Of a stretch of DNA of 64,000 nt, positions 34,555 to 64,000 are shown piece by piece (the first letter of the stretch is position 1; every line of letters starts with the position of its first letter). This DNA is from Pseudomonadota bacterium (GTDB lineage Bacteria > Chloroflexota > UBA6077 > JAJPHF01). The stretch lies in the NCBI GenBank assembly GCA_021325365.1, contig JAJPHF010000144.1, positions 1 to 64,000 on the forward strand, written 5' to 3'. A program made the translations under genes and the position numbers. The notes under the pieces were generated by a model. The model had not been told where the DNA came from, did not search any database, and saw only the letters and a list, made by a program, of their open reading frames with translations.

Positions 34555-34790
34555 CGTTGAAGGGGAGTAGTAGAGGCGCGGCGGTCCCAGCGAGCCGGCA
34601 AATGGTGCAAGGCCGGTGTCCTGAAGCGCTTCGAACTCGCCCCGGAGGGGCTCCGGCGAACGGCGTGGCCGCTAGTCGGAGACGGTGTGGCAGTCGTTAT
34701 TGCTGCCAAGAGTGGATGCGCCGCGCCGGCGCACTCAAGTGGGGTGGTACCGCGAGAATGCTCTCGTCCCGACGGGGCGAGGGTTTTTTT
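34555..34790 (+). promoter_or_regulatory. T-box leader, leucine specifier (CTC)
   Basis: The leader begins with GGGGAGTAGTAG and has an apical stem I pattern (GCCGGCAAATGGTGCAAGGCC). The specifier-loop signature GAA-CTC-GCCCCGGAG follows, with codon CTC (Leu) at 34636-34638. The T-box sequence GGTGGTACCGCG is at 34743-34754; its UGGU bulge would pair with an uncharged tRNA 3' end having discriminator A, as in tRNA-Leu. A terminator hairpin with seven T follows at 34762-34790. The signal fits the downstream ilvB-ilvN-ilvC-leuA-leuB genes: leucine starvation should allow read-through. Confidence 0.93.
34762..34790 (+). terminator. First T-box terminator
   Basis: CTCGTCCC pairs with GGGGCGAG around a GAC loop (one T-G pair), followed by GG and seven T ending at 34790. 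The 5' arm overlaps the region that would pair in the antiterminator. Confidence 0.88.
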
Positions 34791-34810
34791 GTGGTTGCGG
34801 CGCGCGCATC

Positions 34811-34866
34811 AAGCGGGGTGGTACCGCGAGTGACCCTCGTCCCTGACATGGCGAGGGCTTTTTTTA
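34811..34866 (+). promoter_or_regulatory. Second T-box antiterminator/terminator module
   Basis: A second GGTGGTACCGCG occurs at 34817-34828, 74 bases after the first. A second terminator follows: CCCTCG at 34834-34839 pairs with CGAGGG at 34852-34857, then C and seven T. Only 20 bases separate it from the first T run, so it has no stem I or specifier of its own. It must either share the upstream stem I or act passively. The ilvB start follows 48 bases later. Confidence 0.88.
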
Positions 34867-34913
34867 TTGGCCGCGACGGCGCGGCGCGGGCGCAGCTGCG
34901 GGAGGAGAAGGCG

Positions 34914-36664
34914 ATGCGAATGAATGGGTCGCGCATGGTGTGCGAGGCGCTGGTGGCGGAGGGCGTGAAGGACATCTTCGGCCTGCCGGGCGGCGCGATC
35001 ATGCCGCTGTACGACGTGCTGCCGGAGTTCGACTTGCGCCACATCCTCGTGCGGCACGAGCAGGGCGCGGCCCACATGGCCGACGGCTACGGGCGGGCGA
35101 CCAACAACGTCGGCGTGTGCATGGCGACCTCAGGACCTGGCGCGATCAACCTGGTGGTGGGCCTGGCGACGGCGCAGATGGACTCGGCGCCCGTGGTGGC
35201 GATCACCGCGAACGTGGCGACGAGCGTGATCGGCTCGGACGCCTTCCAGGAAGCCGACATCACGGGCATCACGATCCCGGTGACGAAGCACAATTTCCTG
35301 GTGCGGCACGTCCGTGACCTGCCGCGCGTGATGAAGGAAGCTTTCCACATCGCGCGTACGGGGCGGCCGGGCGCGGTGCTGGTGGACGTGCCGAAGGACG
35401 TGCTGGTTGGGGAGGCGACTTCCACTATCCCGACCACGTCGAGCTGCCAGGGTACAACCCCACGTCGCGCGGCAACATGGTGCAGATCCGCAAGGCGGCG
35501 CGGCTGCTGGAGCAGGCGAGCCGGCCGGTGATCATCGCCGGCCACGGCGTGCTGATCGCGCAGGCGTGGGACGAGCTGCGGGCGCTGGCCGAGCGCCAGC
35601 ACGTGCCGGTGGTCAACACGCTGCTGGGGATTAGCGGCTTCCCGGGCGACCACCCACTGTTCCTGGGCATGCTGGGGATGCACGGCACCGCCGCGGCCTG
35701 CTACGCGGTGGACCAGGCGGACCTGGTGATCGGCATCGGCATCCGCTTCGACGACCGCGCGATGGGCAAGTTCTCCGCGTTCGCGCCAAAGGCGAAGATC
35801 GTCCACATCGACATCGACCCCGCGGAGATCGGCAAGAACGTCCGCACCGACGTGCCGATCGTGGGCGACGTGAAGCGCGTGCTGAACGCGCTGCTGCCCG
35901 AGCTGGGCGAGCCGGTGGACCGCTCGGCGTGGTTCAACGTCATTCGGGAGTGGCAGCGGCTCTACCCGCTGCCGGCGGTGCCGGCGGCGCCCGGGCAGTT
36001 GACGACGCCGCAGGTGATCGAGGCGATCCGGGAGGCGACGCGCGGCGACACGACGATCGTCACCGACGTGGGCCAGCACCAGATGTTCGTGGCGCAGCGC
36101 TTCCCGTTCACGCGGCCGAACACGCACCTGTCGTCGGGCGGGCTGGGCACGATGGGGTACTCGCTGCCGGCCGCCATTGGCGCGCAGGTGGCGCGGCCGA
36201 ACGAGACGGTGTGGTGCGTCTCGGGCGACGGCGGCTTCCAGATGGTGATGCAAGAGCTGGCCGTGGTGGCCAATGAGCGCATCCCGCTGAAGATCGCGCT
36301 GGTGAACAACCACAACCTGGGCATGGTCCGCCAGTGGCAGGAGCTGTTTTACCAGAAGAACTACGTGGCCGTGGACCTGTCGGGGACGCCGAACTTCATG
36401 AAGATCGCGGAGGCCTACGGCATCGCGTCGTGGCGCGTGAGCCGGCCCGAGGACGCACTGCCGGCCGTGCGGGCGGCGATGGCGCACCCGGGCCCGGCGC
36501 TGATCGAGTTCATGGTGAAGGCCGACGAGTGCGTGTACCCGATGGTGGTGCCGGGCACGTCGCTGGCCGAGGTGATCGTCAACGACGCGCACGCCGGCGG
36601 GCGGGAGGCGGCGGACGACGAGGGCGCGCCCATGCCGGCCGAGCCGGTGACGCTGCGGGGGTAA
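34914..36664 (+). CDS. ilvB: Acetolactate synthase large subunit, apparent frameshift
   Basis: Two overlapping frames together give a full IlvB. The first (from ATG 34914, after GGAGGAG) has [34 protein letters not shown] with the catalytic Glu, and [20 protein letters not shown]. It runs to VDVPKDVLV near 35408. The second frame resumes at once with [16 protein letters not shown] and continues with [13 protein letters not shown], the TPP/Mg motif GDGGFQMV...[12 protein letters not shown], to 36664. Loss of one base in the ggggagg run at 35410-35416 explains the break. It may be a real mutation or a sequencing error. It catalyses the first common step of branched-chain amino acid synthesis. 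Confidence 0.93.
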
Positions 36665-36670
36665 GGAAAC

Positions 36671-37189
36671 GTGCAACACACGCTTGTCGCGACCATGGAG
36701 AATGACCCGTCCACGTTCAACCGGGTGCTGAGCCTGTTCCGCTGCCGCGGCTTCGCTATCCAGAGCCTGGCGGTGGGCCACACCGACATCCGCAACGTGA
36801 TGCGGCTCACGATCGTCGTCGACGGCTCGAAGACGGCCGTCGAGCAGGTGGTGAAGCAGCTCTACAAGATCATCGAGGTCCGCAAGGTGAGCGACGTCAC
36901 CGAGGACCAGACGGTTGAGCGCGAGCTGGCGATGATCAAGGTGACCAGCAAGCCGAGCACCCGCGGCGAGATCATCCAGCTGGTCGACATCTACCGGGCG
37001 CGGGTGGTGGACGTGGCGCCCAACTCGTTGATCGTGGAGGTGACGGGCACGCCCGACAAGATCGACTCGCTGGTGCAGGTGCTGCGCGCCTTCGGCATCA
37101 AGGAGATGGTGCGCACCGGCGTCGTCGCGATGGTGCGCGGCCCGCAGGTGGCCCAGGAGAGCGACAAGGTCCGCGAGCTAACCGCGTAG
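36671..37189 (+). CDS. ilvN: Acetolactate synthase small (regulatory) subunit
   Basis: The 172-residue protein starts at GTG 36671, six bases after ilvB. An N-terminal ACT domain (HTLVATMENDPSTFNRVLSL, FRCRGFAIQSLAVG) is followed by RELAMIKV-type ERELAMIKVTSKPSTRGEI and the C-terminal IlvH domain (IVEVTGTPDKIDSLVQVLRA, GIKEMVRTGVVAM). It activates IlvB and confers valine feedback inhibition in known systems. Confidence 0.95.
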   Translation: MQHTLVATMENDPSTFNRVLSLFRCRGFAIQSLAVGHTDIRNVMRLTIVVDGSKTAVEQVVKQLYKIIEVRKVSDVTEDQTVERELAMIKVTSKPSTRGEIIQLVDIYRARVVDVAPNSLIVEVTGTPDKIDSLVQVLRAFGIKEMVRTGVVAMVRGPQVAQESDKVRELTA

Positions 37190-37202
37190 CCGGCAGGGTG
37201 GG

Positions 37203-37303
37203 GGCCCTCTCCCTGAGAGAGGGTTAGGGTGAGGGCCGGTTCCCGCACCCTAACCCTCTCTCAGGGGGAGAGGGAACAGAAACCCTCTTCCAGGGGGAGA
37301 GGG
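37203..37303. repeat. Palindromic CCCTAACCCTCTC repeats between ilvN and ilvC
   Basis: Arms 37205-37231 and 37246-37274 are inverted copies of ccctctccctgagagagg plus gttagggtg, with small indels. A shorter third unit lies at 37281-37303. It is the same family as the cluster at 6873-7093. The transcript would form a strong hairpin inside the operon and may affect mRNA processing between ilvN and ilvC. Confidence 0.85.
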
Positions 37304-37336
37304 AACAGACGCTATCGGCATAAGGAAGAGACGAAA

Positions 37337-38332
37337 ATGGCAACGGTGTATTACGACGCGGATGCCGATCTGGCCCTGCTGGAGGGGAAGAAGATCGCCA
37401 TCCTGGGCTACGGGAGCCAGGGCCACGCGCACGCGCTGAACCTGCGTGACAGCGGCTGCGACGTGGTCGTCGGGCTGTACAAGGGCAGCAAGTCGTGGCC
37501 GATCGCGGAGGCCGAGGGGCTCCAGGTGACGACGCCCGACCAGGCGGCAGCGGCGGCCGACATCATCACGGTGCTCGTGCCGGACCAGACGCAGCGTGGG
37601 CTGTACGAGAGCGACATCAAGCCGAACCTCCGGCCGGGCAACATGCTGATGTTCGCCCACGGGTTCAACATTCACTACAACCAGATCGTGCCGCCGGCCG
37701 ACGTGGACGTGACGATGGTGGCGCCCAAGGCGCCCGGCCACCGCGAGCGCGAGGTGTTCGTCGAGGGACAGGGTGTGCCGATGCTCGTCGCAGTCTACCA
37801 AGACTACACGGGCCGCGCGCACGACATCGCGCTGGCCTACGCGAAGGGCATCGGCGGCACGCGGGCGGGCGTGCTGGAGACGACGTTCAAGGAAGAGACC
37901 GAGACGGACCTGTTCGGCGAGCAGACGGTGCTCTGCGGCGGCGTGAGCGCGCTGATCAAGGCGGGATTCGAGGTGCTGACCGAGGCGGGCTACCAGCCGG
38001 AGTCGGCGTACTTCGAGGTCTGCCACGAGCTGAAGCTGATCATCGACCTGATCTACGAGGGTGGCCTGGCGCGGATGCGCTACTCGGTGAGCGACACGGC
38101 CGAGTTCGGCGACTACTACGCCGGCCCGATGATCATCGACGAGGGCGTGAAGGAGCGGATGCGCGAGCGGCTGCGCGCCATTCAGAACGGTGAGTTCGCG
38201 CGCACCTGGATCCTGGAGAATCAGGCGGGACGCCCGAACTTCCTGGCGACGCGACGGCTGGAGGCGGAGCACCCGATCGAGAAGGTCGGCGCGGAGCTAC
38301 GCGCCATGATGCCGTTCATCAAGAAGAAGTAG
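37337..38332 (+). CDS. ilvC: Ketol-acid reductoisomerase (class I)
   Basis: The 331-residue protein has [20 protein letters not shown] (nucleotide binding) and [50 protein letters not shown] (Mg-binding Asp/Glu), [12 protein letters not shown] and [16 protein letters not shown] complete the family. It isomerises and reduces acetolactate. The start is ATG 37337 after AAGGAAGAG; the frame opens earlier inside the repeat. The length fits class I (short) enzymes. Confidence 0.97.
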
Positions 38333-38484
38333 GCGCGCCTTGGTGCCGGAAGCAGTAGAGTGTGGTTGACGAGGTAGCGGGCGGTCGAGGGCGACCGGCC
38401 GGGGGCGGCGGAGAGCGGGGACGGGCGGCGGCGCCAAGCGTCCCGCGAGCGGCCCGCGCAGCGCAGCGCGGCAGGGAGGATCAG

Positions 38485-40044
<1,560 letters not shown>

Positions 40045-48598: not shown

Positions 48599-49603
<1,005 letters not shown>

Positions 49604-50061: not shown

Positions 50062-52830
50062 ATGAGAGCTTTGGGCGTGGCCGGGCGACCGCTTGCGGTG
50101 GTCGGCCTGGCGGTCCTTCTGGGCGTGGCGCTTGGTGGCGACCGCTTGGTGGCGGCGCAGCAGGGCGACGACGTGCGCGCGGCCGCGATCCGGATTGCGG
50201 CCGCGCGCAGCGGTGCGCCGACGAGTCGGCTGACCGCCCTCAGCGTCGCGGAGGCCTCCTACCCCGCGCTAGGCACGGTGGGCCGAGCGGTCAAGGTGCT
50301 CGACACCGCCACGGGCGTCGTGTACGGGGTGGTGCTCGACGCGTCGCTTCAGCCACTCGATACGGGCCAGCTGGCGGCGAGCGACCAGGCGCGGCGGGCG
50401 GCGCAAGGGCCCACGTTTGAGCCCGCGCTGGAGGCCCGCCTCGCGGCCGCTCGGCCGGACGAATTGCTACCGGTAGTGCTCTGGGTGCGCGAGCCCCCCT
50501 GGGCCCGTCCGACGCGGGCCGCCCCGGCGCGCGGCGCGGCGGCGGCCGCGGGGACGGCCGCCACGGATGCCGCTCTCGCCGCGACTCGGCGGCCGGCGGT
50601 GCAGCAGGCCCTCGCGCCGGTCCTGGCGCGTTTGCAGCAGGCCGGGCGCCCGGGGACGACCGCCGGCGACGTGCCCGCGATCTACGTCAGCGTGCCGCCC
50701 GCGCTTCTCGCCGAGATGCGGACGTGGGGCGAGCTGGAGCGCGTGTACCTGGCGGGCGTGAACCAGCCAGACGGCACCACTTACAGGTCGACGATCCACG
50801 CCGACGTCGTCTACGCCCGGGGCATGACGGGCGCGGGCGTGCAGGTGGCCCAGATCGAGCCCGTTGGCCGCGTCGCCACGGCCAACCCCTACCTCGCGGG
50901 CGTCGTCCAGGACTCGACCTACGCCTGCTCCACCCCCAGCGATCACGCTACGGCCGTGGCGGGCATCCTGCGCAGCACGCTCCCCTCGCTACTGGGCATC
51001 GCGCCGGGGATGACCTTGCGCGTTGGCGGGTCGTGCAGCGGGCTGAGCTCGGAGCTGAACGACCGGGCGAGCGCCGCGGCCGACTGGGGCGCGAACCTGT
51101 TCAGTTTGAGCTATAGCAACGATACGAATCGCGTCCCCGGGGCGGACGACCGCTTCTACGACGACATGGCCTTCAACCAGCGACGGCTCGTGGTGAAGTC
51201 GGCGGGCAATCTGGGGCTCTCCGACGGCAACGTGACCAGCCCGGGTCTAGGGTACAACGTGATCAGCGTCGGCGATTTTGACGACCGGAATACGACCGCG
51301 TGGGCCGACGACGCCATGAACGGCACTTCCAGCTACCTGGGTCCCCTATCGGTACACGGGGACCGCCGCAAGCCGGAGCTCGCCGCGCCGGGCACCAACA
51401 TCACTTCGCTCGCGGTAGCCGCGCCCTGGACCGGCTATACCAGTACGGGGGCAAGCTTTGCCACGCCGATGGTGGCCGGCACCGCGGCGCTGCTCCTTCA
51501 GCGCGACGGCAGTTTGGCGCAATGGCCCGAGGCGCTCCGCGCGATTCTCATGGCGACGGCCGTGAACCCGCTGCAGGGGGACACGACGTTGGCGAGTCGT
51601 GGCGGGGTGGGCGGCCTCGTTACGGATCGGGCCGACAACGTGGTCCAGCACATCGACGGCGATTGGGGCGCGCAGCCCTATGACTGCGGGTCGCCGTCGC
51701 CGCTCGACGTTGCCAGCGTCACGTTGCAGGCCGGACAGCGATTGCGGGGCGTGATCGCCTGGAACACCGATCCGAGCTGGTCGGGTTGGCCCTCGCAGCC
51801 CGGCGCCGATCTCGACCTGAGCGCGGTCGGCCCGACTGGCGCCGTCGCGACGTCCGCGAGCCACGACAACTCGTACGAGGTCGTCGACTTTGTTGCGCCG
51901 AGTGCGGGAGCGTACGCGCTACGGGTAAGCAACACTCGCTGCGACAGCAGCCCGGGCGGGCTCGCCTGGGCGTGGCATCTCGTGCCGCCCGTGTCGGTCC
52001 TGGTGTACGGCACCGCCACGCCAACACCGACGGTCACGCCAATGCCGACGGTCACGCTAACCGCAACACCGTCGCCCACGCTGACGCCGACGGCGACGCC
52101 CGTACCGCCGATCTGCCAGCCGCGCCGGCCGCCGGTCCTGGTCTCCACCGTGGCGGCTGGGGGCGGGAGGCTGCAAGTGACCGTCACGGCCCAGACGCTG
52201 CCCGGCAGCCCGCCCAACTCGCTCCGCGAGCTGCGTTTCGGGTCGGCAGCCAACGCGCGCATCGACGCGGGGACGGTGAGCGGGGCGACCGGCAACTTCA
52301 TGATGCCCGCGCCGCCGGGGGCCCAGCAGGTCACGTTCAGCGTTCAGGAGGCCGCGGCGGGGCAGGCGGTCACTGTCCCGCTGACGGTGGTGGACGGCTG
52401 TGGCGACTGGCCGACGCTCGTCGGCGGCGGGACGAGCGCCTTCGCGTCGCCGACGGCGACGGCAGCGCCCGCGACGCCCACGCCCACACCGCCGCCGGTC
52501 TGCGCGCCGACTCGGCCGCAGGTGAACGTCTCGGTCACGCCCGGCGGCGGGCGGCTGGTGGTGACCGTTAGCGCGGAGACGTTGGCCGGCGGCTCCGTGA
52601 ACGCGGTCCAAAACCTGCGCTTTGGCGCGACTAGCAATGCGCTGATCGACGTCGGCGGCCAGACCGGCCGCACGGGGAACTTCAGCGTGCCGCTGGCGCC
52701 GGCGCGGACGCAGACGAGCTTTGTGATACGCCCGGCGGTCGCTGGCCAGGCGACGACGGTCCAGATGACCGTGGTCGACGCTTGCGGCAGCTGGCCGACC
52801 GTGGTGGGCGGCGGGCCGAACGCGTTTTAG
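50062..52830 (+). CDS. Secreted subtilisin-like (S8) protease with two C-terminal repeat modules
   Basis: The 922-residue protein has a signal peptide (LAVLLGVALGGDRLVAA) and a propeptide-like region to about 240. In the S8 fold, His295 lies in SDHATAVAGIL, Asn383 in VKSAGNLG and Ser465 in TGASFATPMVAGTAALLLQ. Where the catalytic Asp is expected, the sequence is GVQVAQIEPVGR, with Glu266. A Pro/Thr linker at about 652-685 precedes two homologous modules (about 685-795 and 812-922). Each starts with CxPxRPx and ends WPT(L/V)VGGG.xAF. It probably acts outside the cell; proteolytic activity is not certain. Confidence 0.85.
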   Translation: MRALGVAGRPLAVVGLAVLLGVALGGDRLVAAQQGDDVRAAAIRIAAARSGAPTSRLTALSVAEASYPALGTVGRAVKVLDTATGVVYGVVLDASLQPLDTGQLAASDQARRAAQGPTFEPALEARLAAARPDELLPVVLWVREPPWARPTRAAPARGAAAAAGTAATDAALAATRRPAVQQALAPVLARLQQAGRPGTTAGDVPAIYVSVPPALLAEMRTWGELERVYLAGVNQPDGTTYRSTIHADVVYARGMTGAGVQVAQIEPVGRVATANPYLAGVVQDSTYACSTPSDHATAVAGILRSTLPSLLGIAPGMTLRVGGSCSGLSSELNDRASAAADWGANLFSLSYSNDTNRVPGADDRFYDDMAFNQRRLVVKSAGNLGLSDGNVTSPGLGYNVISVGDFDDRNTTAWADDAMNGTSSYLGPLSVHGDRRKPELAAPGTNITSLAVAAPWTGYTSTGASFATPMVAGTAALLLQRDGSLAQWPEALRAILMATAVNPLQGDTTLASRGGVGGLVTDRADNVVQHIDGDWGAQPYDCGSPSPLDVASVTLQAGQRLRGVIAWNTDPSWSGWPSQPGADLDLSAVGPTGAVATSASHDNSYEVVDFVAPSAGAYALRVSNTRCDSSPGGLAWAWHLVPPVSVLVYGTATPTPTVTPMPTVTLTATPSPTLTPTATPVPPICQPRRPPVLVSTVAAGGGRLQVTVTAQTLPGSPPNSLRELRFGSAANARIDAGTVSGATGNFMMPAPPGAQQVTFSVQEAAAGQAVTVPLTVVDGCGDWPTLVGGGTSAFASPTATAAPATPTPTPPPVCAPTRPQVNVSVTPGGGRLVVTVSAETLAGGSVNAVQNLRFGATSNALIDVGGQTGRTGNFSVPLAPARTQTSFVIRPAVAGQATTVQMTVVDACGSWPTVVGGGPNAF

Positions 52831-53016: not shown

Positions 53017-53640
53017 TTAGCGCACGGACTCCCACTTGGTGGCGTGGGCCTGGAGGTCCGGGTGGGACACGAGCAGGTGCCAGACGACCGCCTGGAAGGC
53101 CTCGGTGTGCGGCGTGACGTGGGATGGGTTGACGGTCGGGACGATCACGCAGCCATCGGCCACTTGCGCCGTGTAGCCGCCGTCGCGGCCGACAATCCCG
53201 TAGATCCGCGCTCCCACGGCGCGCGCATGCTCCAGGGCGCGCACGAGGTTCACGCTGACGTTCTTCTCGGCATTGCCCCCACCCACGGAGAAGACGAGCA
53301 GGGCATCTTTGTCCGAGAGCCGGCTGCCGCGCAGCCAGGCGGCGAAGGTCGTGTCCCAGCCGTCGTCGTTGATGCGCGCGGTCAGCTCGGACACGTTGTC
53401 GGTCGGGGCGTAGGCCTCGAAGCCGCAGATCTTGCGAAAGTCGTTGACCGCGTGGCCGGCGTGCCCGGCGCCGCCGCCCACACCGAGGATGAACAAGCGC
53501 CCACCGGCCTCGCGCACGGCGGCCAATCCCGCCGCCATGGCATCGATCTGGGCCGCGTCAAAGGCCTGAATAATCTCTATTGCTTCCGCGAGGTACGCTG
53601 AGGCGAAGGAGACTCGCGGCTGGCTGTCCGTTGCGCTCAC
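53017..53640 (-). CDS. SIS-domain sugar-phosphate isomerase (GmhA-like)
   Basis: The 207-residue protein has GRLFILGVGGGAGHAGHAVN, a SIS phosphosugar-binding loop, and KICGFEAYAPTDNVSELTAR. LLVFSVGGGNAEKNVSVNLV and the C-terminal TPHTEAFQAVVWHLLVSHPD follow. The pattern is close to sedoheptulose-7-phosphate isomerase GmhA, used for heptose synthesis, though several lineages use relatives for other sugars. It starts at GTG 53640 after AAGGGAG; the frame upstream to 53874 is unsupported. It is divergent from the low-GC membrane protein gene. Confidence 0.85.
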   Translation of the reverse strand: MSATDSQPRVSFASAYLAEAIEIIQAFDAAQIDAMAAGLAAVREAGGRLFILGVGGGAGHAGHAVNDFRKICGFEAYAPTDNVSELTARINDDGWDTTFAAWLRGSRLSDKDALLVFSVGGGNAEKNVSVNLVRALEHARAVGARIYGIVGRDGGYTAQVADGCVIVPTVNPSHVTPHTEAFQAVVWHLLVSHPDLQAHATKWESVR

Positions 53641-53970
53641 AGCTCTCCCTTGTCCGCATCGGGTAATCTGGGCCGACGCCGCGCCCGCGCCGGGCGGCCC
53701 AACAATGTTAGGCATCCGGTGTCCGCGCGGCAAGCGGCCGGCAGTCCAGTACAGGCCCAGTGGGCTGGCTACCAGGAGGCACCCGTTTGCATAGACATGC
53801 CAGTCACCTCTGACACATGCCCGGTGCCCGCTCCAGCCTCTCTGATTGATACAGCGAGCGGCAGCCCCGAACATTCTGCGGGCGGCGAATTGGACCTGGC
53901 CTCAGCGAAACGAGCTAAGCTATCATGGTTTGCCCGCTCACAGGGTACGGATTTCGGAGGGGGATAGTAG

Positions 53971-56689
53971 TTGCGACGGTCCGTACGCTGCTTGGCGGCC
54001 AAGGTCATGCTGCCCGCACGGTGGTATTTGCTGCTCGCCATCGTAGGAGCCTGGCTGGCAATTATAGCCCATGAATTACCGCACTTCTACGGCGACTTTG
54101 GCGACGACTACTATACATGCTTTAGAATTGGCTATGAAACGGTCCAAGCGTGGCAGACTGCGTTTACTAAGTGGCACGTCAACGCACCATACTACTTTCT
54201 CATCTCATATCTGCCCATCAAGCTGCATTTCGCTATTCCTGGTGTAGCTATTCCAAATTTTCAGCCGGAGCAGATTGCTCTATATCGAGGTCTCATTGCC
54301 TATACGATATTCCTGCATGCAGTGATTCTCGTACTATACGCGTTGTTTGTATACCGCGTCACGAATCGAATGTTATCGACGTTACTAGCGCTTCTGTTGA
54401 TGTTGTCTAGCCCAGTCTTTCTCGCGTGGGCTACAACGACAGAATCGCGGATTATCGGTCTGCTCTTTGCGCTGCCAGGCATGACTATTCTGGCTGGGCT
54501 GCGGTACAGTACTGCCGGTTCTCGTCGGTCTTTACTACTGCAGACCTTCACAGCAGGCTGTTTGCTAACGACTAGTTACCTTGTTCACTACACTGCGCTC
54601 TATCTCATCGTGCCGTTTGCTATAGCGTACTGGCTAGTTACTCTGTTTCATCGCGGACTATCAACCAAGATGCTTCAGGCGGTGGGGGGATTTATAATAG
54701 GTCTCGCCGCTCCGCAGGCTATAGTGGAGATCGTCGGTCAGACCGCCTTGCATATCCCCAACACTCTGACGAACTTTACCGTTCTGGCACAGGCCAACGC
54801 GCAACTCTACGGTAGCCAACTAACCTACGCTCAGAAAGCACACGAGTGGTTTACTGCCTACGCTGGCGACGATGGGTGGCCGTTGATTGTAGTTTCGCTA
54901 GCTGCAATTGCGTGTCTAGTACCGAATGGCCGACACCACTCTGCATTCGTGAACCCATCAATGAGGCTGGTGCTGTTGCTTGCGCTACTGATGGGCGTCA
55001 GTGGGTCTTTCTATGTCAAATTCGTGCCGTATCGTACGCAAGCCATTCTCCAGCCCGTGTTGTTCTTGCTGGCTGCAGTCGGTGTAACGGTTGCATTTGA
55101 TGCTATCCTTGCTCGTTGTTGGAAGTGGTTCAGCTGCCACCCTGCCGGTCGACCTCGGTTGGGTCGCGTGCTCGGTTACGCTATACCCAATGCGCTATTG
55201 TGCTTCCTGTGGCTGCTCGTATTGTGGTTGCCAGCCAGCGTATCGACAAGTCAGGTGTTGGCGCGCCGCGTAAACTTAGGGCGTCTACTGGAGCGCGTGC
55301 CACGACCCAGCGTGATGGCGGCACCTGTAGGCAATGTGGTGGATCAAGCAGTGTTCGACAGGACCGGAGTAGGAATAGGGCCTGCCCAGTTGCTCGATAT
55401 GGAACCGAACGTTTACGCCTTTGATTGCCTTCATCCGAACTGCACGTATTTGCCGAACCGAGAGCGACTGATACATGTGGTATCAGTAGACGCTGATTCA
55501 TCGTTGGAGAACGCGGCCGGCATCCATGACCCTACTCGTGTGCTAGACGGGGGTATTTCACACGACGGGATTACTGATTGGATATCCGGAGACGGGAGTG
55601 GGGACCACTGGGTTGAATTGCACTTCGACCAACCTTATGATCTCGATCAGATGGTAATCGCCAACCGCCGACAATCTATCAGAGCGGACACCATAGATAT
55701 CTATGGATGGGTAAACGGGTCGTGGGTTCAGCTCTTTACTGGAGCTGGGCTGAGCCGCGCGCCCGTCGTGCATGCGCAGTGGGATCAAATTGCGGTAGGT
55801 GGGATACGTGCTGTGGTGCGAGAGAGCAGGATTGAGGGCCAAGTGAGTCGCCGCGCCCAGTTCGATGAGATTTATTTTCCCGGTTACCGCGCCGTAGTGG
55901 GAGTCGCTGCCGAGCGGCCTTCGCTCCTGCCCCTGCAGGTAGAAGCGGTTGGTGCAGACTCCACGATGATTGACCAATGGGCAGCCTGGGAGCCGGAGTA
56001 TATCTTCGACCACGATATGGGTACCGAGAATGGGTACTCAGCTTGGCAGTCGATGCACAGGCCTGGAGCACATTACGTCCAGTTCAGGTTTGCGCGGCCA
56101 TACTTGCTTGACAACGTCCAGGTGGTGAACGCACTCCAGTCACAGCTCGTGAACGCCTATGCGCCGCGGATCGACGCGATGGAAGTCTGGCTGCTCGAAC
56201 AGGGGGGATGGCAGGAAGTTTGGGCCAGGAATGAGCTTCGGGACGAGACGGTCATTGAGGCCAAATGGCGAGCCGTAATGGCGAGCGCCGGAGCCATAGT
56301 TATACGGCGAAGCTTGGCGGGCGGGGCGCCTGTCGACTACGCACTGATCCAGGAGGTGGTGTTTCCGGGCTACTTCGCGGTCTTTGACTGGAGCGCGTCA
56401 TCGAGCGAAACGTTGCTGAAGACAGTAGAAGCCAAGGGAACCCGTGCAGGTGAAAGGGTTCAGCAACGAGCCGTTTGGGCCCGCGCGACTAGAGATTGAG
56501 TATTCGGTGGCAGACGTAGGCGCCGCCGTAATATTCGATGAGGTAGCAGTCGGCGTCGTCGACCGTAGCACTGGGCACCAGCTGGTACCGCTCCCCGCCG
56601 ATCTGTACGGTAAGCCGGGGCGCCACGAGGTCTATTTGCGGGGCAATGGGCGCGAATCGAACCGACTGGAGTTTAGGGTCGAGCCATAG
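53971..56689 (+). CDS. GT-C-like membrane protein with two F5/8-type-C-like domains; frameshifted C-terminal Ig-like domain
   Basis: It starts at TTG 53971, seven bases after GGAGGGGG. Residues 1-430 hold about ten membrane segments, with Asp45-Asp46 in the first outer loop (FGDDYYTCF), NAPYYFLISYLPIK and TESRIIGLLFALPG. Two discoidin-like domains follow, about 495-630 and 640-790, each ending FPGY. The main frame stops at 56499. A second frame (56444-56689) encodes the expected last Ig-like domain (VQVKGFSNEPFG to NRLEFRVEP). One extra base near 56437-56440 explains this. GC is far below that of its surroundings. It is a paralogue of the next two genes; the enzymatic role is inferred. Confidence 0.75.
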
Positions 56690-56784
56690 CGTCGGGAGAG
56701 CCGCCGGTAGTCACGGCGATGGTCGCGCGTCGGTCCCCGAGCGCCCGGGAACCCCTGACCGAGGGAGCGATCTGGACGACCCCG

Positions 56785-59727
56785 TTAGGGTGCTACTATA
56801 AGCTCCAGCGGCTCCGATTGCCCGTTGCTGTTCTGGACGGTCACTAGATGCTGTACGGGGTACGCCAGAAACTCCCGCGGCACGCTCGCCACCAGGGTGT
56901 GCTCGTCCTCGTAGCGCGTTGCCAGCATGACCGAGCTAAGCACGACGACGGTAGACGGCGTGAAATGCTCGCCTGTCACGCGGAGCGCCCCGGTGTCGTC
57001 GGCCTGAGCGTTGAACAGCTCGCCCGCGGTGGCCCGCGCCGGCTCGAGCGCCTCCAACACCGGCGGCAGTCCCCCGGGGCCCGCGATCGTTAGCGTCAGT
57101 GGGTTGGAGTCGCCCTCTGCGTTCCGCAGGCGGATCGTGTGCTGCCCCGCCTGTGTAAGGAACTGTCCCGGGATGTGCGCGGTCAGCGTTCGCTCGTCCT
57201 GGTACGTCGTCGGCAGGGTCACCGTGTCGAACATGACCGCGGTCGTCGGGGTGGCGTTGTCGGCATCGACGTGCAAGGTACGGCCATCGTCGGCAGCGCC
57301 AGCCGGCGCCTCCAGCGGGAAAGTGTCCGGGTGCAGCGCGCGGAGCAGCGCGGGCTGGGGCGGCCAGAGCGCCACGTTCGACTGCCGCAGGCCGTCGGTC
57401 AGGGCGATGCGGTGGGGCTCGTCTGGGTTCATGACGCCGTAGGGGGGGCGCAGCTGCAGCTCGCCGGTGTCCAGCAGCGTCGTGGGGAGCGGCTGGCCGT
57501 CGACGGCGATCGTGGTGCGCGCGGTCAGCCCCGTGCCGGAGACGGTCAGCCCGCGCGCACCCACCCGCATTGCCTGCAAGATGAGCGGAGGCAAGGGCCG
57601 CTGCGGCCTGGGCGCGGCGCTCGCATGCCCCGGGAAGACGACCTCCTCGATGGCAGCCTGGGACGTGGGGCCAGTCGCAAAGGTCTGGGCGCGCACCACC
57701 AGGCGGATGCCGACGACCGTGGCGGGGGACCACACGGGATGGACGCTAGCATAATTTTCCAGGCCTTCGCCACGCCAGACGGTGCGGTATTGGCCCGGTA
57801 CCTGGGCGAGCTGGACGTCGAGGGCGGCGATCCGGCTCGCGAAGGGGCGGCTAGCGCCGGCGCTCTGGTCGCGCGACGGCAGGACGATGGCCAGCTCGCC
57901 TAGGGGCGTGGGTTGAGCGAGGGCAATCTCCAAGATGTGTGGGAGCGGCGTGTCGTCCGAGACCCAGGCAGTGTTGCCGTCGGGCGAGCGGCCTTGGTCG
58001 AAGACGTTTGCCGGCTCCGTCTCGGCCGCGGCCGTGGAGTCCGCCGCGACGGATGCGACGGACACCTCCTCCCCGTCCCTCGCCTGCAGCAGCGCGGCCG
58101 CGTCGTAGATGCGGACCTCGCTGAGCAACGGGTCTGCGCGGAGATCGTAATGGCCGAAGCCGCGGGCCTCTGCCCACAGCGCGTCGGTGGCGTAGAACGA
58201 CGGCCAGGCGGCGAGTGGCGGCGTGGCTTCCAGAGCGGGGCGCAGCTCGCCGTGGGTCGCCAGGAACTGCCACGGGAAGTAGCTCACGACCCACGTGTGG
58301 GGGTCGGCAGGGAGCACCTGCCGCGGGTCCGTCAGGACGGTCGCGGCGGCGGAATCGCCGATGGGCAGCCACTCCAGCTGGCGGTCTCCCTTGTTAGCGT
58401 AAGCCCACTCCAGCGCTCGTCCGAGCGCCTGCTGCGCCTGGAAGACCGTTTGCGCCTGGCGCCAAGGCACTGCCCCGACGAGCAGAAGGAAGCCCACGAC
58501 CAGGGCGCCACGCAGGCGGGTGGCCCGGGTGAGGCGGGTCGCTAGCCAGACGATCCCGACCGCGGCGAACAGAAAGAGGAACGGCTGCAGCAACGACGTT
58601 TGCCGGAAGAACGGCATCGCGCCGGAGAGGACGAGGTAGCCGAGCGCCATCGGGATGCACAGGCCGAGCACGAGGTCGCGGGTGGCTTCCGGCGCGGCGC
58701 CACGCCGGAAGCCACGCGCGTACTGGAGCCAGCCGACGACGATGGCGAACAGTAGCAGCACGCCCATCTGCGTGGCAAAGGAGGTGGCCCAGATCGCGAT
58801 CGTGTCGCGCCATGCCCAATCCGAGGCGTGCTCGTTCCGCAGGAGCAGGAGCGCGCTGGTCGGCCCGTGATCGATGGGGATGCCGACCAGAAAATAGCTC
58901 ACTGCCTCCAGCGCCGCCTGGGGCCAAACCGCTCCGCCCACGAAGCAGGCCAGGCCGAGCCAGCTGCGCCGCTGGCGTCTGTCGCGCGAGAGCTTGACGG
59001 CCCAGAAGATGAGACACAGCGGGACGACGAGATAAAGGGCCGTGTAGTGGATGGCCTGGGCGAGGGTCATCAACGAGCCGGCCAGAAAGAGGGCAACTGC
59101 CCTGGTCCGGGGTCGTGCGGAACTGTTGGCGCTGGGCCGGAAGAGCAGCCAGGCGCCGACGAGCGCGAACGGCAAGCCCAGCAGGCGCGAGTCGGGCTTC
59201 GGGCTCCAGAGTATTAGCGTTGGCGAGGAGGCGAACAGCAGCAGCGAGAGCCAGGCGACCAGGCGGTTGTCGGTCAGGCGGGAGGCGAACCACGCCCACG
59301 TTGCCAGGAGCAGCGCGTGCAAGACCAGCGTGTAGAGCAGCAGGAAGCGAAACGGGCCGGTCTGCGCGCCGAGCAAGGGAACTTCGTAGGACGGCAGGGC
59401 CGCGCCGCTCTTCAACGGCAGGTAGGAGATGAGCAGGTAGTAAGGCTGGAGGGCGTTGTAGAAGAAGGTGAACGCGGCGTGCCAGTCCTGCGCCGTCTTG
59501 GCGGCTTTCAGATAGACGGTGTAGTCGTCCATGTTGATGCCGTAGACGTACTGGAAATGCGCGAGCCAGGCCACTCCATACGCCGCGAGGAGCGCCGCGG
59601 TGAGGAGCAGGTAGGCCGGGCGCGAGAGGCTCGGCGCGGCGTTCGACCGCGCGTCCGTGCCGCCTCCCGACCGTGCTGAGCGCGCGTGCTCATGAAGGCC
59701 GGCGCCCGGCGTCGCGACGGCGGTCAC
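56785..59727 (-). CDS. GT-C-like membrane protein with F5/8-type-C-like and IPT/Ig-like domains
   Basis: The 980-residue protein has three parts. Residues 35-480 are a polytopic membrane half with Asp67-Asp68 in the first outer loop (GINMDDYTVYL), PYYLLISYLPLKSG and KPDSRLLGLPFALVG. Residues about 560-710 are a discoidin-like domain (NVFDQGRSPDGNTAWVSDD ... AIEEVVFPG). Residues about 710-980 are three IPT/Ig-like repeats with SVPREFLAYPVQH and SNGQSEPLELIVAP. It resembles a polyprenyl-phosphate-sugar transferase with an outer sugar-binding tail. GTG 59727 overlaps the upstream gene's stop. Confidence 0.8.
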   Translation of the reverse strand: MTAVATPGAGLHEHARSARSGGGTDARSNAAPSLSRPAYLLLTAALLAAYGVAWLAHFQYVYGINMDDYTVYLKAAKTAQDWHAAFTFFYNALQPYYLLISYLPLKSGAALPSYEVPLLGAQTGPFRFLLLYTLVLHALLLATWAWFASRLTDNRLVAWLSLLLFASSPTLILWSPKPDSRLLGLPFALVGAWLLFRPSANSSARPRTRAVALFLAGSLMTLAQAIHYTALYLVVPLCLIFWAVKLSRDRRQRRSWLGLACFVGGAVWPQAALEAVSYFLVGIPIDHGPTSALLLLRNEHASDWAWRDTIAIWATSFATQMGVLLLFAIVVGWLQYARGFRRGAAPEATRDLVLGLCIPMALGYLVLSGAMPFFRQTSLLQPFLFLFAAVGIVWLATRLTRATRLRGALVVGFLLLVGAVPWRQAQTVFQAQQALGRALEWAYANKGDRQLEWLPIGDSAAATVLTDPRQVLPADPHTWVVSYFPWQFLATHGELRPALEATPPLAAWPSFYATDALWAEARGFGHYDLRADPLLSEVRIYDAAALLQARDGEEVSVASVAADSTAAAETEPANVFDQGRSPDGNTAWVSDDTPLPHILEIALAQPTPLGELAIVLPSRDQSAGASRPFASRIAALDVQLAQVPGQYRTVWRGEGLENYASVHPVWSPATVVGIRLVVRAQTFATGPTSQAAIEEVVFPGHASAAPRPQRPLPPLILQAMRVGARGLTVSGTGLTARTTIAVDGQPLPTTLLDTGELQLRPPYGVMNPDEPHRIALTDGLRQSNVALWPPQPALLRALHPDTFPLEAPAGAADDGRTLHVDADNATPTTAVMFDTVTLPTTYQDERTLTAHIPGQFLTQAGQHTIRLRNAEGDSNPLTLTIAGPGGLPPVLEALEPARATAGELFNAQADDTGALRVTGEHFTPSTVVVLSSVMLATRYEDEHTLVASVPREFLAYPVQHLVTVQNSNGQSEPLELIVAP

Positions 59728-62363
59728 GGCTCGATCTCGAAGACGAGCGCGTTCGACGTGCCGCGGCTGTTCTGCAACGTAATGGTGTGCCGGGACGAAT
59801 AGGCGAGGAACTCGCGCGGGACGGTGGCTGTGAGGACGTTGTCGTCGACGTAGCGCGTGGGCAGCGTGACCGTGTCGAAGAGGACGGTCGTGCCCGGGGT
59901 GAGGTCGGCGCCGTGGACTTCTAGCACCGAGCGGCCGTCGGGTTGGGCGTTGAACGGCGTGTCAACGCGCGCGCTGGCGGGCTGGAGCGCGTCGAGGGTC
60001 GGGGGCGCCCAGGGCCAACGCACGAGGTTCGAGCGCCGCGGCCCGTCGGTGAGATACATCTCGTGGCGATCGGTCTCGCTCAGGCTCGCCGGCCCCAAGG
60101 CCAGTAGCCGCGCCGTGCCCTGCGGGCGCGATGGCAGCGGGCGGCCGTCGACGACCAGGACCGTCTCGGGGGTGACGTTCGCGCCGGAGACGAGCAGCCC
60201 CTGGGGCGTCGCGCTGACGTCGTCCAGCTCCAGGGGCGGTGCCGGGCGCGTCGCGGGCGGGCCCTGCACCGTATAGCCGGGGAAGACGACCTCCTCGATC
60301 GCCGCATCCGGTATGGACTGCATCGGCAGCCGCTGCCCCCGGACGACGAGGCGGATGGCCGAGGCGGCTTGCGGCGGCCACGACGCGGCGACGACCGGGT
60401 ACTTCTCCAGGTGGGCTCCCCGCCAAACGGAGCGGTACTCGCCGCTTGGGTCGGCAACCTGAATCTCCAGGTCGTCGAGCCGACTCCCGACCGCCGACCG
60501 CCCGCCGTAGTCGCGCGGCGGCGAGACGACCTCTACCGCGCCGAGCGGCACCGGCGTGGCGAACTCCACCTCGACGCTGTGGGGCGCAGGGCTGGCCGCG
60601 GAGACCCAGGCGGTCACGCCATCGGCCGCAGCGTCCCGGTCGAAGAGGTTCGCCGGCTCGGTGGCGGCGCTCGCCTGCGAGTCTGCGACCACGCGGCGCA
60701 CCGTAAGCGCGGGGCCGCGAAGCGCGTCGCGCACGGCAGCGCCGTCGATTACCTGTACCTCGCCGAGCAGCCGGTCGGCGCGGAAATCGGTAAAGCCAAA
60801 GAGCTGCGCCTCGGCCTGCACGGCGTCCGTGGCGTAGAGCGATGGCCACGCGGCCACGGGCGCGGTCGCCTCCAGAGCCGGGCGGAGGGATGGGTGGGCC
60901 GCCAGGAAGAACCACGGGAAATAGCTGAGCAGCCAGGTGTTAGCGGGCGCCTCATCGAGCTCGCGGACGCTCGTTACTTCGGTTGCCGCCCCGGTGGGCG
61001 CCAGGGGCAGCCAGCGCAGCGGACGCTCGCCCTTGTTGGCATAGGCCCAGGCCAGGGCGTGGCCCAGCGCCTGATGGGCCTGGAAGACCGCCGCGGCCTG
61101 CCGCCACTGGACGACGCCGGCGACAACCAGCAGCCCGACCAGGAGGGTGGCCCGGCCGGCGGGGCGACGGGCTAGGCGCCGCGCCAAACCTACCATGCCT
61201 ACCGCGGCGAACAGGAACAGGAACGGCTGAAGTACCGAGGTCTGGCGGAAGAACGGAAGCGAGCCGGAAACCGATAGGTACAGGAGCCCGAGGAGAATGG
61301 CGCCGCCGACCATGAGCCGCTTTCGCGGCTCCAAGCGGCCGCCGCTAGGCCAGCCGACCAGGTACCCCGCCCCGCCTAACCCGACAAGGGCAAGCTCGAG
61401 TGGACCGAGCTGAGACAGGAAGGTTTCGACGCGACCGGCCACCGTGTCGACGAAGGACCAGGTCGTTCCGTGCTCGTTGCGGAAGTAGAGGACGCTCATC
61501 GTCGGCCCCTGCTGCCACGGGATACCGACCACGAAGTAGCTGAGCCCTTCCCAGAGCGCGTGTAGCCAGGCGCAGCCCAGGGCGAACACGGCGAGCCCGA
61601 GCCAGGCGCCGCGCACCCGCCAGCGGCCCCAGAGCCACCCCACCGTGAACGCCAGCGATACGGGCGCCAGCAGGTAGAAGGCAGTGTAGTGGATCGACTC
61701 CGCCATGCCGAGCAGCGAGCCGGCCGCGAACAGCGCGACCAGGGTGGGGCGGTCGACCCGCCGCGAGCGCCAGTCCACGCGCAGCAGCAGCCAAAGAGCG
61801 AGCAACATGAAGGGCAGGCCCAGCAGGCGAGAGTCGGGCTTGGGCGTCCAGAGGACGAACGTCGGAGACGTGGCGAGGAGCAGCAGCGCCACGAAGCTTA
61901 CCAGCCGATTGACGCCCACAGCGGTGGCGAACCAGGCCCAGACGCCCAGCAGGGCGACGTGCAGACAGACGGCGGAGAGCTGGAAAAAGCGGAATTGGCC
62001 CGTCTGCTCGCCCAGGAAGGGCACCGTGTAGGACGGGAGGCTGGCCCCCAAAGCGAGCGGCAGGTACGAGATCAGGAAGGAGTACAGATGGTGCGCGTTG
62101 TAATGGCCGAACGCGCCTCGCCAGTCACGAATGGTATCCAGGCCCTTATCGTACACGTGAAAGTCGTCCATGATAAGGCCGTAGACATACTGAAAGTGGG
62201 TTAACCAGAGCAGCAGGTAGGCGAGCAGCAGCACGGACGCCACAAGGAGATACGCCCGTGGCGACAGGTCGAGCAGTGGCGGCTGCTGGACCGCGGCAGG
62301 GGCGGGCAGCGACTCGGCGCTCGCGGGCGCTACGGTGGGGCGGTGGGCAAGAGACAGCCTCAC
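59724..62363 (-). CDS. GT-C-like membrane protein with F5/8-type-C-like and two IPT/Ig-like domains
   Basis: The 879-residue protein, from GTG 62363, has the same layout as its neighbour: membrane half about 35-440, with Asp66-Asp67 (LIMDDFHVYDKG), LYSFLISYLPLALG and KPDSRLLGLPFMLLALW. A discoidin-like domain follows (NLFDRDAAADGVTAWVSAA ... AIEEVVFPGY), then two IPT-like repeats ending TLQNSRGTSNALVFEIEP. The frame is open to 62567 but that part lies inside the preceding gene. The GTG is 10 bp after the upstream stop, so the genes form an operon. Confidence 0.8.
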   Translation of the reverse strand: MRLSLAHRPTVAPASAESLPAPAAVQQPPLLDLSPRAYLLVASVLLLAYLLLWLTHFQYVYGLIMDDFHVYDKGLDTIRDWRGAFGHYNAHHLYSFLISYLPLALGASLPSYTVPFLGEQTGQFRFFQLSAVCLHVALLGVWAWFATAVGVNRLVSFVALLLLATSPTFVLWTPKPDSRLLGLPFMLLALWLLLRVDWRSRRVDRPTLVALFAAGSLLGMAESIHYTAFYLLAPVSLAFTVGWLWGRWRVRGAWLGLAVFALGCAWLHALWEGLSYFVVGIPWQQGPTMSVLYFRNEHGTTWSFVDTVAGRVETFLSQLGPLELALVGLGGAGYLVGWPSGGRLEPRKRLMVGGAILLGLLYLSVSGSLPFFRQTSVLQPFLFLFAAVGMVGLARRLARRPAGRATLLVGLLVVAGVVQWRQAAAVFQAHQALGHALAWAYANKGERPLRWLPLAPTGAATEVTSVRELDEAPANTWLLSYFPWFFLAAHPSLRPALEATAPVAAWPSLYATDAVQAEAQLFGFTDFRADRLLGEVQVIDGAAVRDALRGPALTVRRVVADSQASAATEPANLFDRDAAADGVTAWVSAASPAPHSVEVEFATPVPLGAVEVVSPPRDYGGRSAVGSRLDDLEIQVADPSGEYRSVWRGAHLEKYPVVAASWPPQAASAIRLVVRGQRLPMQSIPDAAIEEVVFPGYTVQGPPATRPAPPLELDDVSATPQGLLVSGANVTPETVLVVDGRPLPSRPQGTARLLALGPASLSETDRHEMYLTDGPRRSNLVRWPWAPPTLDALQPASARVDTPFNAQPDGRSVLEVHGADLTPGTTVLFDTVTLPTRYVDDNVLTATVPREFLAYSSRHTITLQNSRGTSNALVFEIEP

Positions 62364-62373
62364 GCTGGCGCGC

Positions 62374-64000
62374 CTACGGCTCGATGGCGAACGGGAGGCT
62401 GTTCGAGTCCCCGTGGCTGTTGTGAAGCTTAATGGGCTGGCTGCTGGGGTACGCCAGGAACTCGCGGGGCACGCTCGCAAGCAGCGTGTGCTCGTCGAGG
62501 TACTGGGTGGGCAGCGCCGAGGTACCCCACAGCACCACGGTTTGGGGCGTCGCGCCATCTGCCGCAACTCGCAGGGCGGACGTACCGTCGGCCTGCACGG
62601 CGAATGGCGTGTCGGCGGCGGTCGCCGCGGGATCGAGGGCGCGGAGCACCGGCGGTGCGGCTGCGTTGTCCGTCACCGTGAACGGCAGCGCCGCGGACTC
62701 GCCGTCCGGGGTACGGAGGATGATTTGGTGACTGGCGGGGTAGGCCAAGAACTGGCGCGGCACTGCCGCGGTCACTACCGTGTCGGTCTGGACGGTCGTC
62801 GGGAGGGTTACGCCGTCGAAGAGCACGACCGCGCCCGGGACAGCGTGCTCGACGTCCAGGGTGAGGAGCGAGGTGCCATCGGGCTGTTCGGAGAAGGGCG
62901 TGTCGACCGGCGTGTCGGCTGGCTGAAGCCCGTTGAGCACCGGCGGCTGCGCCGGCTTTGCCACCACGACGAACTCGAGCGGATCGGACTCGCCGTTGGC
63001 GTTCCGCAGGACGATGCGGTGGGAGGCGACCTCGCTGAGGAACTCCTGGGGCACGCTGGCCCGCACGACCCGCTCGCTCTCGACGGTCGTCGGCAACGCG
63101 ATGTTGTCGAACATCGCCGTCGTGCCGGGGACTGCATGCTCCGCGGCCAGGATCAACGTCGAGGTCCCATCCGGCTGCTGGTTGAACGGGGTGTCGATCT
63201 GCGTCTCGCTCGGCTGCAAGCTCACCAGGATTGGGGCGTAAGCTGGCCTGGGCGTCACGGCGAACTGGATGGCGTTCGACGTGCCTTGACCGTTACGAAG
63301 GGTGATAGTGTGGTCGCCAGCCAGGGTCAAGAAGTCCCTGGGGATGCTGGCGGTGAGCGTGCCGGCGGCTAGCTGCTCGGTCTGCAGGGTCACGTTGTCG
63401 AAGACCACGACCGTGTCACGTGTTAGATCCGCCGCCTCCACGCGCAGCGTCGAGCTGCCGTCGGGCTTCGCTCCGAACGCGGCCCCCGCCTCGGTCGAGG
63501 GCGGCTGGATCGCGATCAGCCGCGGCGGATTGGTGGTCTTCGGGGCCACCACGAAGTCGATCGGATTGGAGTCCCCGAGGCTGTTCCGCAGCGTTACCGC
63601 ATGGCGCCCCGGGTCCAGAAGGAACTGGGCGGGCACCTGCGCGACGATGGTCCGGTCGTCGCGCGCCGTGGTGGGCAGTCCGACGCCATCCCAGAGGACG
63701 GTCGTGCTGCGGGTTAGCTCGTCGGCGGTCACCTGTAACTCCAGGCTCCCGTCCGGTCGGCCCGGGACCGGCGTATCGGCGAGCACACTCGCGGGGGACA
63801 ACTGCCGCAGGACGGGTGGGACCGTCGTCTTCTCGGTCACCACGAAGTCAAACGGCGCCGACTCGCCGAGCACGTTAGTCAACGTAATCCGGTGATGGCC
63901 GGTGTTGTCGAGAAACGAAGCAGGCAAGGTGGCCGTAAGAGTCTGCGGGCCCTGATACGTGGTGTCCAGCGCTACCGAGTCGAAGGTGACGGTCGTGCCG
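62374..64000 (-). CDS. Tandem IPT/Ig-like repeat protein, 5' end outside the window
   Basis: The frame stays open to the window edge at 64000, so the N-terminus is missing; about 541 residues are visible. They form five to six repeats of about 98 residues. Each has a strand pattern like TTVLFDGVTLPT, then SVPREFLAYP, then HTITLRN..G.SNP and a linker LQPAxTxxDTPFxxQPDGTS. The last ends LPFAIEP. The same repeat forms the C-termini of the two downstream genes, so this could be the tail of a fourth GT-C-like protein or a repeat-only adhesin. Confidence 0.75.
   Translation of the reverse strand, partial: GTTVTFDSVALDTTYQGPQTLTATLPASFLDNTGHHRITLTNVLGESAPFDFVVTEKTTVPPVLRQLSPASVLADTPVPGRPDGSLELQVTADELTRSTTVLWDGVGLPTTARDDRTIVAQVPAQFLLDPGRHAVTLRNSLGDSNPIDFVVAPKTTNPPRLIAIQPPSTEAGAAFGAKPDGSSTLRVEAADLTRDTVVVFDNVTLQTEQLAAGTLTASIPRDFLTLAGDHTITLRNGQGTSNAIQFAVTPRPAYAPILVSLQPSETQIDTPFNQQPDGTSTLILAAEHAVPGTTAMFDNIALPTTVESERVVRASVPQEFLSEVASHRIVLRNANGESDPLEFVVVAKPAQPPVLNGLQPADTPVDTPFSEQPDGTSLLTLDVEHAVPGAVVLFDGVTLPTTVQTDTVVTAAVPRQFLAYPASHQIILRTPDGESAALPFTVTDNAAAPPVLRALDPAATAADTPFAVQADGTSALRVAADGATPQTVVLWGTSALPTQYLDEHTLLASVPREFLAYPSSQPIKLHNSHGDSNSLPFAIEP

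Follow-up and report, generated by a model that had tools for sequence, protein, structure and literature searches.

A tandem array of putative GT-C glycosyltransferases with carbohydrate-binding and TIG-like outer domains in an uncultured Chloroflexota genome

Introduction

Glycosyltransferases of the GT-C type that carry a glycan-binding module of their own are, to our knowledge, known mainly from mycobacteria and from one O-antigen system. Here we describe an array of large membrane proteins, quite probably GT-C glycosyltransferases integral to the membrane that combine a transferase with a lectin of its own, at the right end of a 64,000-nucleotide stretch of Chloroflexota DNA (contig JAJPHF010000144.1, positions 1 to 64,000; hereafter the window). 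The fusion of a GT-C core to a carbohydrate-binding module (CBM) is established for Emb, AftD and GT136, which are described as using sugars from polyprenyl-phosphate-type carriers outside the membrane, with the CBM binding the acceptor glycan (PMC3044687, PMC7341804, PMC11127046). EmbA, EmbB and EmbC (family GT53) combine a GT-C core with a C-terminal CBM and an Asp-Asp pair on which activity depends (PMC7341804, PMC3044687). In EmbB the pair is D285 and D286, and its counterparts are essential to the activity of corynebacterial EmbB and mycobacterial EmbC (PMC7341804); altering conserved tryptophans of EmbC lowers acceptor binding and activity (PMC3044687, PMC7341804). GT136 (ORF12 of Citrobacter youngae) likewise joins a GT-C core to a C-terminal CBM by which it binds its acceptor glycan, and the portion of the report consulted describes one Ig-like CBM and mentions no tail of CBM32 plus TIG repeats, a comparison made by description and not by sequence (PMC11127046). 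The mycobacterial arabinofuranosyltransferase AftD places CBM-type beta domains after its GT-C core in one chain, as do the proteins described here. We know of no TIG repeats in AftD, and of neither a CBM nor Ig repeats in ArnT (GT83).

The family that we describe is real and well formed and belongs to the known kind "GT-C plus own carbohydrate-binding module"; its layout in the array is related to, and not the same as, that of the mycobacterial cell-wall enzymes. The new part is the combination of repeat tails and amplification into an array, of which we found no description in the literature searched.

An array of paralogues

The right end of the window contains three complete large open reading frames (ORFs) and part of a fourth:

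53971-56499, plus strand: P0001, 842 residues; a divergent paralogue, subfamily B
56785-59727, minus strand: P0002, 980 residues; GT-C core, one CBM32 and TIG/CoaZ repeats
59724-62363, minus strand: P0003, 879 residues counted from a GTG codon; a start at 62567 is possible in the same ORF
62374-63999, minus strand: P0004, frame open at the window end; the 541 C-terminal residues of P0005

On the minus strand, P0003 and P0002 share 4 bases (end of the former, start of the latter), and the gap between P0004 and P0003 is 10 bases. With such close spacing these three genes resemble a single operon and are probably co-transcribed; P0001 is convergent with them. P0002 and P0003 are 50% identical across 94% of P0003, and the family profile matches P0002 and P0003 with E-values of 0 and P0001 with an E-value of 4e-218, far above chance, all three being rows of that profile. 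The proposal of the first-pass annotation that these are paralogues of one architecture therefore holds, with corrections. The first paralogue had been taken to end at 56689, which overshoots, since the stop codon of P0001 lies at 56497-56499. The fourth frame, which holds five complete TIG/CoaZ repeats and a piece of a sixth one, had been thought to consist of repeats only; it is identical, letter for letter, to residues 818-1358 of P0005, a public protein of 1358 residues with a membrane half and a CBM as in P0002 and P0003, and thus represents the C-terminal part of a fourth paralogue that the end of the window truncates. We accordingly rejected P0004 as a separate repeat-only protein.

Membrane core and aspartate pair

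The predicted structures contain the GT-C membrane fold. In the model of P0003, residues 1-28 are disordered and are followed by a helix (35-59) and then by the Asp pair of the outer loop; the core spans approximately residues 35-445, and a small soluble alpha/beta domain (approximately 445-545) comes after the last membrane helix. P0001 has a core at approximately 5-421. The family thus unites a GT-C core and a CBM in one chain in the manner of AftD and Emb, and AftD is the best whole-chain Foldseek match of the P0003 model (E 9.4e-10), the alignment covering 467 residues over 28-703 of P0003 and 518 residues over 7-797 of P0001. The whole-chain root mean square deviations are high (11.6 and 19.8 Å), so the placement of the domains differs from that in AftD. 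A second Foldseek match is the EmbB chain 7bvf_B (E 2.5e-5), but the N-terminal CBM of Emb and the two extra membrane helices that hold it are absent from the P0003 model. The earlier statement that no named family has this layout is consequently rejected for GT-C plus CBM, given Emb, GT136 and the top-ranked AftD, and stands for GT-C plus CBM32 plus TIG.

The Asp-Asp pair starts at residue 45 in P0001, 67 in P0002 and 66 in P0003, exactly where the first-pass annotation had put it (45-46, 67-68 and 66-67). In P0003 it is encoded as follows:

62163-62168, minus strand: codons of Asp66-Asp67 of P0003, at the start of outer loop 1; Asp67 invariant among relatives

In the model the pair sits directly after membrane helix 1, at the beginning of an outer helix. 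Conservation was read from an alignment of 41 rows from which P0004 was left out, in which P0028 and P0035 are gapped at the pair and in which P0001 and P0041 are both rows although they are one protein. Asp67 is present in all 39 ungapped rows (38 of 38 distinct proteins) and Asp66 in 38 of the 39, with one Glu (37 of 38 distinct proteins); P0043, outside the alignment, likewise reads GDDYF. Pro102, Arg125, His135, Arg179 and Tyr230 are also invariant across ungapped rows, and position 373 is Arg in 40 of the 41 rows and His in the other. Model and alignment together support the claim of an Asp in the first outer loop of a GT-C-like half. Two motifs said to be common to all three paralogues fared less well: P0001 has LISYLPI in place of LISYLPL, and SRLLGLPF, found in P0002 and P0003, is SRIIGLLF in P0001.

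The invariant residues bear on whether these proteins are enzymes at all. They could be non-catalytic membrane lectins or adhesins in which a GT-C relic serves to hold CBM32 and TIG repeats on the surface; such a combination is typical of surface proteins, and the many outer domains and the variable number of repeats would fit. A mere anchor, however, would not need invariant polar core residues, and in relatives with 25-50% identity to P0003 the residues Asp67, Arg125, His135 and Arg179 are the same in every ungapped row. We consider this explanation very unlikely.

As to the class of enzyme, ranking by structure does not decide between GT-C subclasses, since GT-C cores resemble one another and the Z score of a model alone separates no subclasses. 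Of 25 members scanned, 9 match Pfam PF13231 (PMT_2) at E <= 0.05, and P0033 (31.0) and P0040 (30.8) pass its cut-off of 26.1, which would suit protein O-mannosyltransferase-like enzymes (GT39/PMT_2) that glycosylate secreted proteins, for example surface proteins with TIG/CoaZ repeats. PF13231 is nevertheless a broad family, P0003 falls under its cut-off (23.1), P0001 and P0002 are unmatched at E <= 1, and the CBM suggests a glycan acceptor; we consider this assignment unlikely. An oligosaccharyltransferase-like activity, in which a whole lipid-linked oligosaccharide would be transferred to protein (as by AglB or PglB) while CBM and TIG domains handle the protein or the glycan, appears quite unlikely: among 43 protein records P0016 alone has the WWD motif of oligosaccharyltransferases (GT66), and the window's own proteins all lack it; nor do structural Z scores by themselves set this subclass apart.

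Outer domains

Both fold and Pfam score identify the discoidin-like domains as CBM32/F5-8 type C, with two in P0001 (approximately 500-638 and 654-804) and one each in P0002 and P0003, in keeping with the one or two such domains first annotated; the ending FPGY ascribed to them occurs twice in P0001 and once in P0003, and is FPGH in P0002. In the 879-residue form of P0003, the CBM32 (552-696) is followed by an Ig/IPT-like domain (approximately 700-783) and a TIG/CoaZ repeat (788-877). The TIG-like tails of P0002, P0003 and P0005 score above the cut-off of 30 for NF058597, "choice-of-anchor Z repeating domain" (100, 48.3 and 195.8, in three, one and seven stretches), and P0001, P0040 and P0042 have no match. 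This model defines a family of repeats and does not describe the enzyme; the seven family proteins tested had no hit to any further NCBIfam model at E <= 1. For PF01833 (cut-off 20.9), P0002 (21.4) and P0004 (46.1) lie above and P0003 (19.4) below. Across the family, the number of TIG/CoaZ Ig-like repeats per protein ranges from 0 to 7. Structure prediction, which the first-pass annotation had proposed as a check, and domain profiles together recovered GT-C, CBM32/F5-8C and TIG-like domains. The one to three IPT/Ig-like repeats claimed for every paralogue are present in P0002 and P0003; for P0001 a repeat exists only in another frame:

56429-56686, plus strand: TIG-like repeat, its stop codon ending at 56689; in a frame other than that of P0001, ending ...VEP-stop

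The P0001 gene therefore appears to be interrupted before its TIG-like tail, through either a real break or an assembly error. A similar tail continues in frame in the relative P0042 (by eye), and another relative, P0043, stops after its second CBM. The G+C content of P0001 is 55%, against approximately 70% in its surroundings, and 0.60 at third codon positions, against 0.83-0.93 in ten other window genes measured, as if the gene had been recently acquired.

Proposed function

On the precedent of Emb, AftD and GT136, the core of each array protein would work on the outer side of the cytoplasmic membrane, drawing a sugar from a polyprenyl-phosphate carrier, and Asp66-Asp67 would have the part in the reaction that the Asp pair has in Emb. 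The acceptor gripped by the CBM32 would probably be a cell-surface glycan in the course of synthesis, and the TIG/CoaZ Ig-like repeats might act as a spacer that sets the acceptor's distance outward, or as an additional grip on it. The paralogues might add different sugars to one envelope polymer, or act at different positions of it. The original suggestion that sugar-transfer and sugar-binding parts are fused in one chain is thus favoured by the GT-C fold, the CBM32/F5-8C domains and the conserved Asp; the accompanying suggestion of an adhesion system gained no direct support.

Several points weigh against a transferase with its own lectin. The fold and the conservation are computed, and the donor, the acceptor, the sugar and the role of the repeats are what we infer. 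Searches of PDB sequences with P0001, P0003 and the family profiles gave no sequence-level match to any solved GT-C: nothing was significant with P0001 or P0003 singly, and neither the full family profile (A1) nor the core profile (A3) found an AftD or Emb chain at E <= 10. The predicted structure of P0001 is weaker (predicted local distance difference test, 65.4; predicted template modelling score, 0.60), and its gene is the one interrupted ahead of the TIG-like tail. P0040 has the core and little or no CBM. No polyprenyl-phosphate-sugar synthase was found among the part of the window's ORFs that was scanned. Finally, the CBM of GT136 binds the acceptor and yet is dispensable under the conditions tested (PMC11127046).

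Relatives and distribution

Protein searches that scored approximately 8,000 candidates each returned at least 38, at least 3 and at least 3 proteins; the figure of at least 38, P0003 included, comes from the search with P0003 (7,998 candidates). P0006, P0012, P0013 and P0043, the listed entries with an organism or locus in their names, are "hypothetical proteins" of Chloroflexota metagenome-assembled genomes. P0007 and P0008 share their listed longest-contig figure (91,208; such figures are given per 90% cluster) with P0002 and P0003, which makes an array of six or more members probable. A tree of 37 rows, built without P0004, P0041 and four short or partial proteins (P0028, P0035, P0036, P0039), divides the family by a 100/100 branch into two subfamilies, P0001, P0042 and P0043 on one side and all others on the other; the six array members sit at no fewer than three places in it, some inner forks being weak. 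In the metagenome-assembled genome VII06, one member of each subfamily occurs, and their locus tags, 32205 and 32210, lie next to each other if the numbering advances by five; the pairing of both subfamilies may therefore be kept outside this locus.

The search for the joined architecture across genomes that the first-pass annotation had suggested gave mostly matches to the Ig/TIG end, the core matches being few, weak and partial. With A1, 400 Chloroflexota genomes gave 32 matches in 28 genomes (at most two candidates scored per genome), 31 of them in the CBM end and Ig/TIG part, from profile position 687 onward, and one in the core. With A3, the 400 genomes gave seven weak partial matches (E 8e-6 to 8e-4; at most four candidates per genome), the best of which has a PMT_2 score just under the cut-off and no CBM match. 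The closest genome seen, G087 (leuA 84% identical), has no A3 core match, and the 16 genomes of its order, G087 included and all candidates scored, yielded three weak partial ones. No relative was found with A1 in the GTDB r220 species genomes (140 stretches from a scan with two short patterns); 93 stretches of viral contigs contained none, and 14 genomes reached via ilvC loci no family member. Since few candidates were scored per genome and the collection had no genome known to contain the family as a positive control, these negatives do not prove absence, and the family is best described as rare or patchy in the collections scanned. A literature search combining Chloroflexota with TIG, type C domain, envelope glycosylation or choice-of-anchor found no relevant paper, for the last of these among 10 listed titles of 59.

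More speculatively, and with considerable doubt, we suggest that an uncultured Chloroflexota clade might run a length-coded extracytoplasmic glycan "assembly line" made up of six or more GT-C enzymes in tandem, drawn from two anciently diverged subfamilies. Each enzyme would have its own CBM32 reader, and a TIG/CoaZ arm of 0-7 repeats would measure the distance from the membrane at which a sugar is added; such a system, if it exists, is not described for Chloroflexota in the literature searched. The array of ancient paralogues offers a handle on envelope glycosylation in a phylum whose envelope is poorly understood, and the repeat tails of differing length form a natural series for the roles of CBM and spacer in GT-C enzymes.

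Neighbouring genes

Two sugar-related genes close to the array had been linked with it:

48602-49603, minus strand: gmd, GDP-mannose 4,6-dehydratase, 4.4 kb from the array
53020-53874, minus strand: SIS-domain protein, GmhA-like (SIS_2), neighbour of the array

The gmd product scores above its equivalog cut-off (421.3 versus 415), and the SIS-domain protein far under that of gmhA (43.6 versus 209). Homologues of gmd in G087 (83% identical) and in a second genome, G206 (76%), have other immediate neighbours by eye: ABC permease-like and Ser/Thr kinase-like genes flank the former, and metK-like and phosphomannomutase-like genes lie beside the latter. The stretches fetched around them contain no family member (A1 and A3, E <= 1; on the array side the G087 contig breaks off 1.5 kb from gmd), and the core profile found no member in either whole genome, with one weak partial match in G206. 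The claimed link with gmd is thereby weakened, though not excluded, and we draw no tie of either gene to the array.

Relatives of the SIS-domain protein, 62-63% identical, occur in four other Chloroflexota genomes, two of which we looked at. In one, G079 (L142:9964-11217), a GmhB-like phosphatase and a GmhA-like SIS domain are fused in a chain of 417 residues beside an epimerase-like gene; in the other, G103, an HddA-like kinase gene lies near the SIS relative. Because close relatives adjoin or are fused to such genes, whose GmhB-like and HddA-like names rest on matches below equivalog cut-offs, these neighbourhoods hint at a heptose-type sugar or nucleotide-heptose pathway, which we offer as a lead only.

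Between gmd and the SIS gene lies a large subtilase (Peptidase_S8; 50062-52830) with two similar C-terminal repeats (by eye). Approximately 20 kb from the array, a membrane glycosyltransferase of the GT87 type (PF09594; 33137-34480) precedes branched-chain amino acid genes (34557-40044) encoding an ilvB-like thiamine-pyrophosphate enzyme, ilvC and leuA; the ilvB-like gene is split by an apparent frame break into ORFs at 34557-35531 and 35477-36664.
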